Shown here: positions 8,225-14,169 of the stretch, one piece after another
Position numbering within the stretch: position 1 is the stretch's first letter
How the letters are laid out: every line of letters begins with the position of its first letter
The notes under the pieces: model-generated
Databases searched by the model: none
Told to the model about the DNA's origin: nothing
What the model saw: the letters and a program-made list of their open reading frames with translations, nothing else
Origin: Methanothermococcus thermolithotrophicus DSM 2095
GTDB lineage: Archaea; AGJL01; Methanococci; Methanococcales; Methanococcaceae
Reading direction: 5' to 3'
Assembly: GCF_946463545.1 (NCBI RefSeq)
Contig: NZ_OX296583.1
Location: forward strand, 620,001-684,000
Length of the DNA: 64,000 nt
Position numbers and translations under genes: made by a program

Positions 8225-8851
8225 ATGGTGAATAATGTAAAGGAAGAAGTTAAAACATACTGGGATTTTAGAAGTGATTCCTATGATAATTCTCCCGGTC
8301 ATTCTGGTTTTGTAGATATTTGGAGAACTGTTTTATCTGAAACTTTTAAAGGGAAAATGAAAATCCTTGATGTCGGATGTGGAACAGGTTTTTTATCCTT
8401 GATTTTAGCTGAATTAGGGCATGATGTTATAGGTGTGGATTTATCTGAGGGAATGCTCAGTAAAGCAAAAAAGAAGGCGGAAGAGAATGGATATGATATT
8501 TTATTCAAATTAGGGGATGCCGAAAATCTACCTTTTGAGAATGACTCTTTTGATGCTATTGTGGAGAGGCACATACTATGGACGCTCCCAAATCCAGAAA
8601 AAGCCATTAATGGATGGGCCAAACTTCTAAAAAATGGAGGTAAATTGATATTGATTGAAAGTGAAAAGAAGGAAGGAAATGTTGCCAACCACCACTATAA
8701 CGAAGAAATTGCAAAGGAGCTCCCTTTTTCAAACGGCATAGATTTGGAAAAATTCAAAGAGATAGCAAATGAATGCAATTTAACATTTAAAGTAGAAACT
8801 TTGGACTGCGAGAAGATAAATTTAATGATTGTTTGCGAAAAAACTTGTTAA
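8225..8851 (+). CDS. Class I SAM-dependent methyltransferase (UbiE/COQ5-like fold)
   Basis: 208 aa. Motif I is ILDVGCGTGFLSL (SAM glycine loop), followed by the acidic ribose-binding VIGVDLSEGML, then LGDAENLPFENDSFDAIVERHILW and LLKNGGKLILIE. It is soluble, and the substrate cannot be read from the sequence. It lies 152 bp upstream of the nitrogenase component-1-like genes in the same direction. The gap is AT-rich and probably carries its own promoter, so co-transcription is uncertain. A role in the same pathway, for example methylating a substrate or product of the reductase, is only a positional inference. Confidence 0.85.
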   Translation: MVNNVKEEVKTYWDFRSDSYDNSPGHSGFVDIWRTVLSETFKGKMKILDVGCGTGFLSLILAELGHDVIGVDLSEGMLSKAKKKAEENGYDILFKLGDAENLPFENDSFDAIVERHILWTLPNPEKAINGWAKLLKNGGKLILIESEKKEGNVANHHYNEEIAKELPFSNGIDLEKFKEIANECNLTFKVETLDCEKINLMIVCEKTC

Positions 8852-9003
8852 TTTTTCTTTATTTGATTTTATCGATATATAGTTGAATAATATAAATGTA
8901 TATTTGATAATAAATAATTAGTAATAAATAATAAATATTATGTAATAATTTATGTTAAATTACATTAAAATATTAATAAACTAAAAATTCATTTGGTGAT
9001 TCA

Positions 9004-10212
9004 ATGGAACCTTTGCAGGGTTGTAGGATGATTGGAGCCATTAGGGCATTTAATGGAATACTTGACGGATATTCAATATTACACTCACCACCTGGATGCC
9101 ATTCTGGTGTGATGATGTTGGAAGTTTTGCAAGATAACAGCGATTGGAGAATTGCAGTTTCTGGAATGCATCAAAGGGATTTGGTTTATGGGGCGGAGAA
9201 CAAGTGCTTATTGGCAATAAAAAAGGTATATGAGACCATTAAACCAAATTTTATTGTTGCTATGGATTGCTGTTCATCAGGTATTTTAGGAGAAGATTTA
9301 GAGAGCATTGTTAATTTAGCAAAGGATGAAATTGATAAAGATATAATCTATTTTAGCGGAGCAGGATATCACAGTTTGGCATATTCAGGTTATGATGAAG
9401 CATTAAAATCATTAGTTCAATTTATGGAGCAAAAAGAAACCATTCCAAACTCAATAAATTTGATTGGTATAAAAATCGATGATTTTAAGGCTAAGGAAGA
9501 TATTGAAGAAATAAGGAGGATTTGCTGTAATGCAGGAGTTAATATAAATTCTATTTTAACCTGCGATACTTTTGATGCCATAAAGAATGCTCCAAATGCT
9601 GAATTAAATGTCGTCTTTGGAGATGGAATTAAATTGGCAGAATTAATGAAAAAGAAATTTGACATCCCATATGTTGTTGTTGATTATCCATATGGCTTAA
9701 ATGGGACCTTGGAATTTTTAAACTCGCTAAATGAGCATGTTAATGTTGATTTTGAGTTTGTTGAAGAGGAAAAGAAGAGGATAATCAAAACTGTTGAAAA
9801 GGTTCAGTTCTATTTAAAAGGATTCTACGGCATGAGCTCCGCAGTAGTTGGAGATTATAAGGCATTTGGATTTGCCAAATTTTTGTCTGATGAGATAGGG
9901 TTTGACATTGATACCTTGGGCGTTTCAAAATTTTACAATATCAACAGCAAAATAAAGGAAATTAAGGATATCGTGGAAAATATTGTTATAGACGACAGAA
10001 AGGAGCTGGAAGATAAAATTATGGAAAATAACATTGAGATACTGTTTGGTTCCAGTTATGAAAAGAAAATGGCACAAAATAAAAACATACCATTAATAAG
10101 GTTCTCCTATCCAGTAGTTGATGAAATATCTTTAAGTAATACTCCACTTGCTGGATTTAGGGGAGCTCCTATAATTATTGAAAGAATTATAAATGAAATT
10201 ACAAAGGCATAA
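9004..10212 (+). CDS. Nitrogenase component 1-like subunit (short)
   Basis: 402 aa, oxidoreductase/nitrogenase component 1 superfamily (NifD/K, ChlN/B, BchY/Z relatives). Three N-terminal cysteines sit in the P-cluster-type pattern: C7 in PLQGCRMIGA, C32 in SPPGCHSG and C89/C90 in AMDCCSSGILGED. SGMHQRDLVYGAENK matches the E/D-x-VFGG block. At the position where NifD carries its FeMo-co cysteine (after the AELNVV segment) this protein has FGDGIKLA, so a FeMo-cofactor is not expected. It is 11 bp upstream of the 467-aa subunit and probably forms a heteromeric complex with it, reduced by the NifH-like protein. The CfbD signature of F430 synthesis is not apparent, so I regard it as an uncharacterised branch. 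Confidence 0.85.
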   Translation: MEPLQGCRMIGAIRAFNGILDGYSILHSPPGCHSGVMMLEVLQDNSDWRIAVSGMHQRDLVYGAENKCLLAIKKVYETIKPNFIVAMDCCSSGILGEDLESIVNLAKDEIDKDIIYFSGAGYHSLAYSGYDEALKSLVQFMEQKETIPNSINLIGIKIDDFKAKEDIEEIRRICCNAGVNINSILTCDTFDAIKNAPNAELNVVFGDGIKLAELMKKKFDIPYVVVDYPYGLNGTLEFLNSLNEHVNVDFEFVEEEKKRIIKTVEKVQFYLKGFYGMSSAVVGDYKAFGFAKFLSDEIGFDIDTLGVSKFYNINSKIKEIKDIVENIVIDDRKELEDKIMENNIEILFGSSYEKKMAQNKNIPLIRFSYPVVDEISLSNTPLAGFRGAPIIIERIINEITKA

Positions 10213-10223
10213 TAGGTGGCGAT

Positions 10224-11627
10224 ATGCAGTATAAAGAACAGAAAATAAGAATTTGCTCAAACCTTCCACTGCATAGGCAAAGCGGTGTTCCTGGGAAGGT
10301 TTGTGGAGCTTTAAGGATTGCAAACCAAATAAAAGGATGTGTCCCAATACTCCATTCACCAGTAGGTTGTGCATTCCAAAGGAAGATAAACACATTTGCA
10401 CCTTATGAGATAACCTACAATTTACCTTGCACAAATTTAACAGAGGTTGATACAGTCTATGGCGGTCATGAGAAATTGGTAGAAAAGGTTTTGGAGGTTA
10501 ATAAAAAATATCATCCTGAGCTCATATTAATTATATCAACATGTGCCCCTGATTTAATTGGAGAGGATTACGATATTACATTGGATGAAGTCAGGGATAT
10601 GATTGATGCAAAGATTATATACGACACAGGAAATGCAAAGAGAGCTCCCGTTGGCATGCAAAGTGCATTATATTCATTAGCCACTCAGGTAATGGAGGAA
10701 CAGGATAAAATCAAAAAAAGCCTGAATATTTGCAAACTTTCATACCATAGAACAGATTCAGTTGATGAATTTGTAGATATTTTGGAAGAGATGGGAGCTC
10801 ATGTTAATGGAGTTTATTTCAACAACAACACCGTTGAAGATATAAAAAACATTCCAAGAGCTGAGCTCAATTTGGTAGATTTTCCAGCAGATTGGGTATT
10901 ATATGCCGAGAAGAAATTTGGGACAAAATATCTTGTGCCGCCACGACTAAAAATAGAAGACTCACTAACGACATTAAATGGGTTTGCCAAATATTTGTAT
11001 GCTATTGCAGGAGCTCTGGACTTGGATACTGATGTAATTGAAAAAAGAAAAAAAGAAGCAGATGAAAAACTTGAAAAATATAGGAAAAAATTAAAAGGTA
11101 AAAAAATAGCAAGTGGATTTTCAGTTCATGGAGGGGCAATGCAAACACTGATTGAAGACGTAGGAATGGAATGCCCTGTTTTAATATTAAAAACTAGAAG
11201 AATGAATTTAATGATGAAAGATGATGCTGTTAAACACATATCCAATTCAATGACAAGATTTATTGAAAATCATCAAGGATATGCTCCAGAAGTATTGATA
11301 AATCCAACTACTGAGGAAGAAATAAAGGCTATGAAGGAACATGGTATTGAATTGTGCGTAGGCGGAATGGAAAATAACATGTTTGAATATTTAAGAAACG
11401 GCATAAAATTATTCGATATGAGGCGGATGATGCAAATATCAAAAATGGGCTTCAACAATTCTGTAAATATAGCAAGGGAAACCTATAAAATTGTCTCCAA
11501 AGAACCAAAATCACACTTGTTATTGGGAAATATAGAGTATTCAATGAGAAATCCAAGTTTATCAAACTATTGGGCAGATATTGTTGATATATTCCAAACA
11601 TGCTGGCATTGTGATTGTAAGGACTAA
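10224..11627 (+). CDS. Nitrogenase component 1-like subunit (long, Cys-rich tail)
   Basis: 467 aa, partner of the preceding subunit. P-cluster-type cysteines are C27 (PGKVCGALR), C49 (SPVGCAFQ) and C107 (ISTCAPDLIGED); the NLTEVDTVYGGHEKL block is typical of the superfamily. The region matching the NifD cofactor cysteine reads AELNLVDFPADW, with no Cys. The last eight residues (CWHCDCKD, with C460, C463, C465) form a CxxCxC tail that NifD/K and CfbD do not normally have and that could hold an extra metal site. GGTGGCGAT precedes the ATG. A 49-bp gap separates it from the nifH-like gene. Confidence 0.87.
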   Translation: MQYKEQKIRICSNLPLHRQSGVPGKVCGALRIANQIKGCVPILHSPVGCAFQRKINTFAPYEITYNLPCTNLTEVDTVYGGHEKLVEKVLEVNKKYHPELILIISTCAPDLIGEDYDITLDEVRDMIDAKIIYDTGNAKRAPVGMQSALYSLATQVMEEQDKIKKSLNICKLSYHRTDSVDEFVDILEEMGAHVNGVYFNNNTVEDIKNIPRAELNLVDFPADWVLYAEKKFGTKYLVPPRLKIEDSLTTLNGFAKYLYAIAGALDLDTDVIEKRKKEADEKLEKYRKKLKGKKIASGFSVHGGAMQTLIEDVGMECPVLILKTRRMNLMMKDDAVKHISNSMTRFIENHQGYAPEVLINPTTEEEIKAMKEHGIELCVGGMENNMFEYLRNGIKLFDMRRMMQISKMGFNNSVNIARETYKIVSKEPKSHLLLGNIEYSMRNPSLSNYWADIVDIFQTCWHCDCKD

Positions 11628-11676
11628 TCATAATGAGATTAATATAATTATATAAAATAAGAATTAAGGTGATAAT

Positions 11677-12549
11677 GTGAAACAAATAGCATTTTATGGA
11701 AAAGGAGGAATTGGTAAATCTACAACAGTATGCAATATAGCGGCGGCACTTGCAGATGAGGGAAAAAAGGTAATGGTAATCGGGTGCGACCCAAAACACG
11801 ACTGCACTTCAAATTTAAGGGGTGGGGAAGAGATTCCTACAATATTGGACACGCTGAGGGAAAAAGGAATGGAAAAACTCAGTTTAGAAGATGCAATAGA
11901 GGGGAGAAAGATTGAAATGGATGAAATCATCCATAAAGGGTATAACGGCATATACTGCATTGAGGCAGGAGGACCAAAACCAGGATACGGATGTGCTGGA
12001 AGGGGTGTCATTGTAGCAATAGATTTGTTAAAGAAAATGGATATATATGAAGAATTAGGCGTGGATATAGTTCTTTATGATGTTCTTGGAGATGTTGTTT
12101 GTGGAGGATTTGCCATGCCTTTAAGAATGGGATTGGCTAAGCAAATTTATGTTGTAACTTCCTCCGACTACATGGCAATGTATGCGGCAAATAATATATG
12201 CAGAGGCATGAAGGAATTTGCTAAAAAAGGAGGAAGTAGGCTGGGAGGATTAATTTACAATGTCAGGGGTTCATTAGATGCTTATGATTTAGTTGAAGAA
12301 ATGGCCAATAAAATAGGAACTGAGATTACAGGTAAGATTCCAAATTCTATGCTGATTGCTGAGGGTGAGATTGAAGGAAAAACTGTAATTGAATATGCTC
12401 CTGACAGTGAAATTTCATCTATTTATAGAGAGCTCGCCAGGAAGATTTATGAAAATGATACAGGAGTAATTCCAAATCCTCTGGAAAATGAGGAAATAAT
12501 GCAAATTGGGCAGGCCGTTAAGGAAAGGATTAAAAAAATGAGGAACTAA
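11677..12549 (+). CDS. NifH-like ATP-dependent iron-sulfur reductase (dinitrogenase reductase family)
   Basis: 290 aa. The N-terminal P-loop is YGKGGIGKSTT. The two [4Fe-4S] ligands that bridge the homodimer are C106 (PGYGCAGRG) and C142 (GDVVCGGFAMP). It hydrolyses ATP to pass single electrons to a component-1 partner. The start is a GTG after AAGGTGAT; the ATG two bases earlier runs into a stop. It resembles the M. jannaschii NifH homologue MJ0879, which as I recall is the reductase (NflH/CfbC) tied to F430 synthesis and is also followed by a gate-domain protein gene. It may therefore serve CfbD (not in this window), the two subunits upstream, or both. Confidence 0.92.
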   Translation: MKQIAFYGKGGIGKSTTVCNIAAALADEGKKVMVIGCDPKHDCTSNLRGGEEIPTILDTLREKGMEKLSLEDAIEGRKIEMDEIIHKGYNGIYCIEAGGPKPGYGCAGRGVIVAIDLLKKMDIYEELGVDIVLYDVLGDVVCGGFAMPLRMGLAKQIYVVTSSDYMAMYAANNICRGMKEFAKKGGSRLGGLIYNVRGSLDAYDLVEEMANKIGTEITGKIPNSMLIAEGEIEGKTVIEYAPDSEISSIYRELARKIYENDTGVIPNPLENEEIMQIGQAVKERIKKMRN

Positions 12550-12625
12550 TTGTAATGTTAATTTTATTCGCAAATTAATCTTATATTGTTATTTATATTT
12601 ACTAAAAGGCATAAGGGCGATACCA

Positions 12626-13552
12626 TTGGATATATTATCTTATTTAACTCAAATAATCGTTTTATCATCAGTTGGGATTATTATTGCAGGAATCATTGAA
12701 GAAACAAATCTATTGTCCATAATTAAGAAAATAACAAAACCATTATGTTTAATCTCAAATTTACCTGAGGAGTGTGTAGTGGCGTTATTGGGGAATTTTA
12801 TAAATCCAACAGTTGGAAAATCGATGCTTGCTAAATTCTACAAAGATAATAAAATAAACAGTAAAGAGACAATAATTACTACAATAATAAGTCCATTGCC
12901 AATAATTTTAGGAGAGAGTATATTTAGGGTGCAGCTACCCCTTGCAATTGTTCTCCTTGGATATAAATTAGGTACAATATATGTGCTTTTTAATATGTTT
13001 TCTGGATTTTTAATGGCTTCAATTGGAATTATATATTCAAATATCTTTTTTGAAAGGAAACCAATAAACATCAATACCAACAACAATGAAAAAATTATAT
13101 TCAATAGGGAAGTTATTACGAAAGGTGTTATGAAATCTGTAGAGCTCCTAAAAAAAGTAATTCCTATGATTGTAATATTTACATTACTAATATATTGCCT
13201 AATGACTTTTGGTTTAACGGATATTGTAAAAGAGATATTTACACCAATATTTGGCATACTAAATTTACCGGGAGAAGCAGTAATGGTTTTAGTTGCAAAT
13301 TTTGCCCATTTCTCCGCAGGATATGCTACTGTGGATATATTAATAAAAAATGGAGTGTTAAATGAAAAACAGGCATTATTAACACTGTTAATTGGAAATA
13401 TAATTGGGGTGACTATGATATATTTAAAACACTCCATAGGGACCTATGTTGCATTATTTGGTAAATTCGGTCTAAAATTAGCCATGATTAATTATACTAT
13501 ATCGATTATTATAAAAATTATATTAATAACCCTTGTAATGTTGATACTTTAA
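12626..13552 (+). CDS. Gate-domain (nucleoside-recognition/SpmA-SpmB-like) membrane protein
   Basis: 308 aa, very hydrophobic, about eight membrane segments in two homologous halves: one around LGNFINPTVGKSMLAKF with SPLPIILGESIFRVQ, the other around VANFAHFSAGYATVDILI with LLIGNIIGVTMIYLKHSIG. This two-gate layout is that of the nucleoside recognition/gate family, which includes parts of FeoB and the SpmA/SpmB proteins. Substrate unknown; a metal ion or small organic solute is plausible. The start is TTG (12626) after GGCGAT. It follows nifH by 76 bp on the same strand, a linkage I recall from M. jannaschii as well, so a role in supplying or exporting something for the reductase is likely but unproven. 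Confidence 0.75.
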   Translation: MDILSYLTQIIVLSSVGIIIAGIIEETNLLSIIKKITKPLCLISNLPEECVVALLGNFINPTVGKSMLAKFYKDNKINSKETIITTIISPLPIILGESIFRVQLPLAIVLLGYKLGTIYVLFNMFSGFLMASIGIIYSNIFFERKPININTNNNEKIIFNREVITKGVMKSVELLKKVIPMIVIFTLLIYCLMTFGLTDIVKEIFTPIFGILNLPGEAVMVLVANFAHFSAGYATVDILIKNGVLNEKQALLTLLIGNIIGVTMIYLKHSIGTYVALFGKFGLKLAMINYTISIIIKIILITLVMLIL

Positions 13553-13559
13553 ATTAAAA

Positions 13560-13750
13560 AAGAACTAGTAAAAAACCTAACGGTTTCGATTACGAAGTGA
13601 GCGAATAATAAAATCGGAGCTCACGAAGTGAGCGTTATGAAAATCATAGATTTTCAAAACCCTTAACGGGAAGAGCTATAAAATCACGAAGTGATTTTAT
13701 TCAATGCGAAGCATTTTATCTAATTTACTACTCAAATTCCTTCGGAATTT
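13560..13750. repeat. Palindrome-rich intergenic block before the CRISPR array
   Basis: No gene. A run of short hairpins with GAA or ATA loops: GCTCACGAAGTGAGC (about 13619-13633), TGAAAATCATAGATTTTCA (about 13637-13655), a hairpin with ATAAAATCAC/GTGATTTTAT arms around GAA (about 13678-13700) and AATGCGAAGCATT (about 13704-13716, containing GCGAAGC). The ACGAAGTGAGCG unit appears twice. One or more of these may end transcription from the gate-domain gene. Confidence 0.6.
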
Positions 13751-13751
13751 G

Positions 13752-14169
13752 ATGGTCTGATTTTAACTCCTTTTGTGTCCCTGTCCTGTTGCAAGATACA
13801 GGATTTCCATCCCACTATGGTCTTATTTTAACGGTTTATGACGAAGAAAAGCTTGACATGTCAAGTTAATTTCCATCCCACTATGGTCTTATTTTAACAT
13901 CTACATTCAAAACCTTGTAGGAATCTTCTTTACTGATTTCCATCCCACTATGGTCTTATTTTAACTTGCCAATTTCCCAGACGCATATATTGCACTTTGG
14001 TCATTTCCATCCCACTATGGTCTTATTTTAACCTAGATATGATATTTTATTGTCTTGTGCTCGGACTTTATTTCCATCCCACTATGGTCTTATTTTAACA
14101 ATTCAACATCAATCACTTTTATATTCCCCTGCCTGAGCAATTTCCATCCCACTATGGTCTTATTTTAAC
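13752..14169 (-). CRISPR. Short CRISPR array (6 perfect 30-nt repeats plus one degenerate terminal repeat, 6 spacers)
   Basis: Perfect repeats lie at 13803-13832, 13869-13898, 13936-13965, 14003-14032, 14070-14099 and 14140-14169. On the minus strand the repeat begins GTTAAAATAAGACC and ends GGGATGGAAAT, the usual 5' handle side of type I-B crRNAs. A seventh, decayed repeat ends at 13767 and keeps only the first 16 bases with two changes. Its position marks the old trailer end, so the array is transcribed leftwards from a leader at 14170 upward. Spacers are 35, 36, 37, 37, 37 and 40 nt. By eye none matches the provirus in this window. The cas6 of the adjacent operon should process the transcript. 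Confidence 0.97.

Follow-up and report, generated by a model that had tools for sequence, protein, structure and literature searches.

Within a window of 64,000 nucleotides from the complete genome of Methanothermococcus thermolithotrophicus DSM 2095 (1,706,496 bases, Methanococcales; window G000:C1:620001-684000) we identified a cluster of five genes encoding two nitrogenase-like component-1 subunits (D1 and D2), a NifH-like Fe protein (H), a methyltransferase and a Gate-domain membrane protein. Judged by trees and profile searches, D1 and D2 constitute a previously unassigned branch of nitrogenase-like enzymes, relative to the clades with which they were compared. Together with H they are predicted to form an ATP-driven enzyme, similar to the dark-operative protochlorophyllide reductase (DPOR), that reduces an F430- or corrin-type metal tetrapyrrole, an assignment that we put at a probability of about 0.6. 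Four features point to a metal tetrapyrrole as the substrate: H belongs to the CfbC type, the cofactor ligand is absent, accessory genes are common to family and cfbC loci, and genes for chelatases and corrin methylases neighbour family members. All five genes lie on the + strand in the order methyltransferase-D1-D2-H-Gate with gaps of 152, 11, 49 and 76 bases, and the five open reading frames (ORFs) listed in the initial annotation of this region were all recovered in place.

D1 (9004..10212, + strand, 402 amino acids) and D2 (10224..11627, + strand, 467 amino acids) are component-1 subunits of the beta/K and alpha/D type respectively, both matching the Pfam family Oxidored_nitro (E 5e-76 and 2e-52). 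Their placement on the K and D sides was recovered in a quick tree and in the first of our careful trees, with weak support for the deep split. In the careful trees (LG+C20, 58-59 rows, no BchYZ, Isr or Nfa rows) family D1 was monophyletic with support of 100/100 or 100/99 and family D2 with 100/99, and the topologies of the two subtrees largely mirrored one another. Both clades were separate from those of Nif, Vnf, Mar-like and BchNB proteins, H-D fusions, and the Methanomicrobiales and elusimicrobial/spirochaete nitrogen-fixation-like (NFL) proteins, and support for their deep placement among the main clades was 38-53. D1 and D2 thus fell outside the NifDK/VnfDK, NifE/NifN and BchN/BchB clades and outside the L020/L021 clade, which we named Mar-like on gene content. 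The branch of CfbD was too long for firm placement in the tree, and D1 and D2 were set apart from it by profile score, reaching 47 and 46 bits with the CfbD model TIGR03282 (cut-off 268). The NCBIfam equivalog models for NifD, NifK, NifE, NifN, BchB, BchN, BchZ and CfbD all scored far under their cut-offs: the top model was BchB for D1 (158 bits, cut-off 490) and NifE for D2 (103 bits, cut-off 505), BchZ gave 44 bits for D1 (cut-off 529), and BchY was listed for neither subunit. AlphaFold models of the single subunits, built with 31-32 family sequences as input, had predicted local distance difference test (pLDDT) scores of 90 for D1 and 81 for D2. The D1 model was as good a match to NifK-type subunits as to ChlB/BchB (template modelling (TM) score up to 0.88 by query); that of D2 matched NifEN (first, TM 0.60), MarD and NifD loosely, at 0.52-0.60. 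The superfamily tree that the initial annotation had called for therefore places both subunits outside NifDK, NifEN, BchNB and the Mar-like proteins, with CfbD excluded by profile score. A search of the open literature, with subscription papers outside its scope, returned no description of the D1/D2 clade. A cold-seep study lists subclusters B, C and E of group IV NifH without known function, and the D1/D2/H family may be one of these.

In NifD the ligand of the iron-molybdenum cofactor (FeMo-co) is the cysteine within the motif NIVHC. At this position D2 has NLVDF and D1 has NVVFG; the cysteine is missing from both window subunits, as already noted in the initial annotation, and also from all 64 relatives (0/31 for D2, 0/33 for D1). 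Measured by this alpha-subunit ligand, D1, D2 and their relatives lie outside the Mo, V and Fe nitrogenases. No NifB- or NifX-like ORF was found in the 64-kb window at E<1e-3, and nifHDKEN lies approximately 1 Mb from the cluster at 1655-1663 kb, which agrees with the earlier remark that Nif assembly genes are absent from the vicinity. The cysteines described there as following the P-cluster pattern (D1 C7/C32/C89/C90, D2 C27/C49/C107) are present in the window proteins, as are the two Fe-S cysteines of H (C106/C142). D2 C27 did not hold up as a family trait, since it occurs in just 4 of the 31 relatives; C49, C69 and C107 occur in 31, 28 and 27 of them. Among the 33 D1 relatives C32 is found in 32, C7 in 25, and the third ligand as C89 in 19 and as C90 in 13, a split owing to which a standard P-cluster should not be assumed. 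On this alignment the family does not share the six cysteines of the textbook P-cluster, and with its interface cysteines partly conserved it is likely to have an Fe-S cluster between D1 and D2. A C-terminal TCW[HY]C motif of D2 is confined to four Methanococci.

H (11677..12549, + strand, 290 amino acids, GTG start) is a NifH-like Fe protein, a 4Fe-4S ATPase (Fer4_NifH, E 2e-104), which by its profile score and position in the tree is of the CfbC type, the Fe protein of the F430 pathway. It scored 536 bits with the NCBIfam model PRK13230, and a tree with 53 H proteins placed family H and CfbC in one clade (96/89), leaving NifH, MarH and other NFL H proteins outside it. The two are intermixed, as seven label changes are needed to account for family H within the clade, of which supported branches enforce at least six; window H is nested among the CfbC proteins of Methanococcales, and one H from a family island, L200_18914, lies outside the clade. 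The CfbC label is safe for the ANME-1-THS member (ANME, anaerobic methanotrophic archaea), whose gene has cfbB (578 bits, cut-off 560) on one side and cfbA (138 bits, cut-off 120) on the other, and is presumed for the Methanococcales, where a single non-nif NifH-type gene is left in the genomes. H scored 344 bits with the model NF033200 (cut-off 402), a threshold that the presumed CfbC of other Methanococcales also miss (341-368 bits). CfbC and CfbD of the window genome are encoded elsewhere, at 901 kb and 510 kb; this CfbC shares 78 % identity with H, and the CfbD scores 487 bits. In the genome G035 the identity between CfbC and cluster H is 94 %. The stand-alone cfbC of G034 is interrupted (L138:4098-4915) with a Gate gene adjoining. 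Cluster H, the one CfbC-type gene seen intact in this draft, may there serve F430 synthesis; an assembly error is possible. As window H also exceeds the cut-off of the NifH model (422 bits, cut-off 394), nifH surveys will count such genes as nifH.

The remaining cluster genes encode a UbiE-like class-I S-adenosylmethionine (SAM) methyltransferase (8225..8851, + strand; Methyltransf_11, E 1e-26) and a Gate-domain (PF07670) membrane protein (12626..13552, + strand, TTG start; E 1e-17). We compared gene content on 31 family contigs with 76 control loci, which are themselves NFL or CfbC loci; the reference set comprised 80 NifH-type loci, mostly other NFLs, obtained with a motif-forced query containing artificial decoy rows. 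Class-I methyltransferases were present on 18/31 family contigs and at 0/76 control loci (p 2e-12), Gate genes on 10/31 and 3/76 (p 2e-4), Peripla_BP_2 genes on 12/31 and 6/76 (p 3e-4) and Nik/Opp permeases on 4/31 and 1/76, while FecCD genes were not enriched on the 31 contigs over the 76 controls. These p-values overstate independence, as the ANME-1 contigs are related to each other and the methyltransferase queries were drawn from family loci. With regard to the methyltransferase and Gate genes, the conserved linkage proposed as a check in the initial annotation is borne out, and its view that the cluster encodes an ATP-driven reductase of a separate branch is supported relative to the assigned clades tested.

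The three control loci with Gate genes are all cfbC loci. Gate genes flank cfbC in Methanocaldococcus, where the encoded protein is 78 % identical to that of the window, and in G034, and the ABC-2, FecCD, Gate or CobN-like genes of the family islands recur in the cfbC neighbourhoods L143, L146 and L138. Tetrapyrrole genes were found on 7/31 family contigs and at 7/76 control loci (p 0.065). Adjoining family members are CobN (1778 bits, cut-off 1468) and BchH (885 bits, cut-off 829), together with CbiL (188 bits, cut-off 163), CbiH (274 bits, cut-off 246), CbiET, CbiG and, at L014, CbiF (390 bits, cut-off 260). At L248 H-D1-D2 is divergent from cbiH-cbiG-cbiF-cbiET, cbiL is a neighbour at L247, and in G035 cbiF lies just 3′ of the Gate gene. 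A nickel-type ATP-binding cassette (ABC) transporter precedes the cluster in G023, G034 and G035 (Opp2B at cut-off, NikC/Opp2C and a NikA-like binding protein). In G023 an ORF of 491 amino acids (L013:14023-15498) begins like a radical SAM protein and continues as the C-terminal portion of the NikA-like binding protein, and this binding-protein gene looks rearranged or decaying.

Orthologues of D2 were identified in 4 of 36 Methanococci genomes, those of the other three being 99, 94 and 84-85 % identical to the window protein. The family was also present in 4 of 150 Methanosarcinia genomes, carriers that branch outside Methanosarcina and Methanococcoides, in 9 of 58 genomes of the class containing ANME-1-THS, with up to 7 D1 matches per genome, and at 370-430 bits in 4 of the 349 genomes from a Bathyarchaeota-containing phylum that we take to be the Thermoproteota. 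In a tree of McrA six of the nine ANME-1-class carriers grouped with a named ANME-1 genome and a seventh was placed beside a metagenome-assembled genome (MAG) of the Archaeoglobi; no mcrA was seen in the remaining two. Six islands of this class (L198, L199, L200, L201, L251 and L252) contain at least two D2-D1-H sets each within 12-40 kb, together with several methyltransferases, many dockerin-like Peripla_BP_2 proteins, and FecCD and Gate genes. The search with the final profile covered archaeal groups. A tblastn search of plasmids returned nothing beyond distant Nif, Bch and Mar-like matches, and a contig scan with D2 alone as query gave no matches.

Bases 8366-13561 of the window share 96.5 % DNA identity with G023, a member of another genus, compared with 81 % for the nifH of the two genomes, and by this measure the block moved recently between genera by horizontal transfer. 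Its breakpoint near base 8366 lies inside the methyltransferase gene. Residues 1 to ~47 of the encoded protein are unlike all orthologues and the remainder is near-identical to them, consistent with a chimera made at the breakpoint; the window methyltransferase may therefore be altered in function. The nickel-type transporter was left behind when the block moved. The cluster is flanked 5′ of the methyltransferase gene by an ORF that, by reading of its sequence, resembles a glycyl-tRNA synthetase. Some 250 bases 3′ of the Gate gene are six exact 30-base clustered regularly interspaced short palindromic repeats (CRISPR; 13803-14169), beyond which lie minus-strand cas-like ORFs.

In DPOR and CfbCD ATP-driven electron transfer from the Fe protein reduces a substrate bound where other members of the superfamily hold their cofactor. 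By analogy H would hydrolyse ATP and donate electrons, via an interfacial Fe-S cluster between D1 and D2, to a substrate lodged in the cavity that corresponds to the FeMo-co site of nitrogenase, with no Fe8S9C cofactor, as in DPOR and CfbCD. One or more ring double bonds of an F430- or corrin-type metal tetrapyrrole would be reduced, the exact bond being a guess. This molecule would also be modified by the methyltransferase, and transport of it or of its metal would fall to the Gate protein, joined in relatives by ABC transporters. Several points weigh against this assignment. The tetrapyrrole substrate, the formation of a D1-D2-H complex and the type of its cluster are predictions, whereas the family with its clade, the CfbC type of H, the absent cofactor cysteine and the conserved neighbours are shown by the sequences, and the structure model of D2 is of moderate quality (pLDDT 81). 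Given controls that are NFL or CfbC loci, the tetrapyrrole linkage is modest by itself, and CobN-type proteins are common among methanogens. Relatives have neighbours of two kinds and so leave the ring type undecided, nickel-type genes speaking for an F430-like ring and the corrin genes (Cbi/CobN) for a corrin-like one. The patchy presence of the cluster also means that its product is not essential.

Transport genes beside the cluster could also be taken to mean that the enzyme reduces a nickel-binding or other non-tetrapyrrole small molecule, for instance a metallophore, which the transporters would carry and the methyltransferase tailor. The nickel-type ABC genes 5′ of the cluster in G023, G034 and G035 fit such a role, as do a family-5 binding protein beside an ANME-1 member and the FecCD and ABC-2 pairs of the islands. 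The Fe protein is however of the CfbC type, the same transport genes accompany cfbC itself, and the window organism has kept the reductase with no nickel-type binding protein, so we regard this explanation as unlikely. Nickel transport as the core function was considered and dropped, as no family-5 (nickel-type) binding protein is encoded anywhere in the window genome. We consider it improbable that the enzyme belongs to cobamide synthesis proper, standing in with an ATP-driven reaction for a step on the corrin ring such as that of cobalt-precorrin-6A reductase (CbiJ). The cbi genes at L248, at L247 and 3′ of the Gate gene in G035 would accord with this, but up to 7 D1 paralogues per ANME-1-class genome are a poor fit to a single housekeeping step, and cobamides are generally needed by methanogens whereas few Methanococci are carriers (4/36).

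A role as a NifEN-like scaffold maturing a metallocluster is suggested by the best model and the first-ranked structural match of D2, NifE and NifEN respectively. With a score far under the NifE cut-off, a position outside the NifDE and NifKN clades and a partner Fe protein of the CfbC type, such a role seems very doubtful. Of the two substrates put forward in the initial annotation the tetrapyrrole is favoured by the CfbC-type H and the tetrapyrrole neighbours; the methylated sulfur compound is not, there being neither a cofactor cysteine nor a NifB-type gene. New relative to that annotation are the CfbC type of H, the recent transfer that made the methyltransferase chimeric, and the ABC transporters beside relatives, nickel-type in three Methanococci. 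Cleavage of a sulfur compound in the manner of methylthio-alkane or isethionate reductase would draw on membership of the same superfamily and on the methyltransferase in the cluster. Besides lacking the MarD-type cysteine and a NifB-type gene in the window, the two subunits do not fall within the Mar-like clade and have no linked sulfur genes, and although the tree held no Isr sequences we think this activity most improbable.

Few reactions have been assigned to nitrogenase-like reductases, their substrates being protochlorophyllide, chlorophyllide, Ni-sirohydrochlorin diamide, thioethers and isethionate. The present family adds a further two-subunit branch with a CfbC-type Fe protein, and its amplification in ANME-1-class genomes makes these candidate genes for the modification of F430. 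According to a 2022 review the F430-modifying enzymes are unknown (PMC9081873, section 8). A tentative and rather unlikely possibility is that D1/D2/H and the methyltransferases make or repair modified F430, for example in the formation of 17(2)-methylthio-F430 in ANME-1 or the re-reduction of oxidised F430, sharing CfbC with the main F430 pathway. M. thermolithotrophicus is culturable, which makes an expression or deletion test feasible.

A number of other NFL arrangements were observed among the reference loci. Fusions of H and D (~700-800 amino acids) beside a K subunit of ~430 amino acids are widespread in clostridia and methanogens (L030, L032, L039, L041, L042, L058, L065 and others). 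A myxococcotal MAG (Myxococcota, L069:2627-5884) encodes a protein of 1085 amino acids in which two tandem NifH-type domains are fused to a component-1 domain; the ORF after it is also of the component-1 type. Four Methanomicrobiales loci (L028, L029, L036 and L052) carry triples of H, a short D (~350 amino acids) and a component-1-like protein of 370 amino acids, which form clades of their own. L086, a Clostridiales NFL, appeared as a distant relative of D1/D2 in the quick tree and was rejected as such, being unsupported in the careful tree; at this MAG locus (L086:1210-6531) a divergent NFL pair and H are directly followed by OppD- and OppF-like ATPases.

Compared with known systems, the cluster shares with MarHDK the set of H, D and K genes, and related bacterial loci likewise contain ABC transporters, but D1 and D2 belong to another clade and have neither a cofactor cysteine nor a NifB-type partner gene. 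MarD holds its Fe8S9C cofactor through a cysteine (PMC12552129). IsrHDK has the same gene set, is accompanied by a radical SAM protein and groups near MarD (PMC11423573); by Pfam none of the five cluster genes encodes a radical SAM protein, and our trees contain no Isr sequence. The H-D fusions and the elusimicrobial and spirochaete NFLs (L094/L099, probably group VI-like to judge from their host lineage) are likewise uncharacterised relatives with no assigned substrate, and form clades separate from D1/D2 in the careful trees. DPOR (BchLNB/ChlLNB) resembles the cluster in having D and K subunits with no large cofactor, D1 being nearest to BchB by profile and to ChlB/BchB by fold, and differs in that D1 and D2 form separate, fully supported clades served by a Fe protein of the CfbC type rather than BchL. 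With CfbCD the cluster has in common an H that is intermixed with true CfbC, the absence of a FeMo-co cysteine and the Gate, FecCD, ABC-2 and CobN-like neighbours, whereas its catalytic part is predicted to consist of two different subunits, D1 and D2, in place of the single-subunit homodimer of CfbD.

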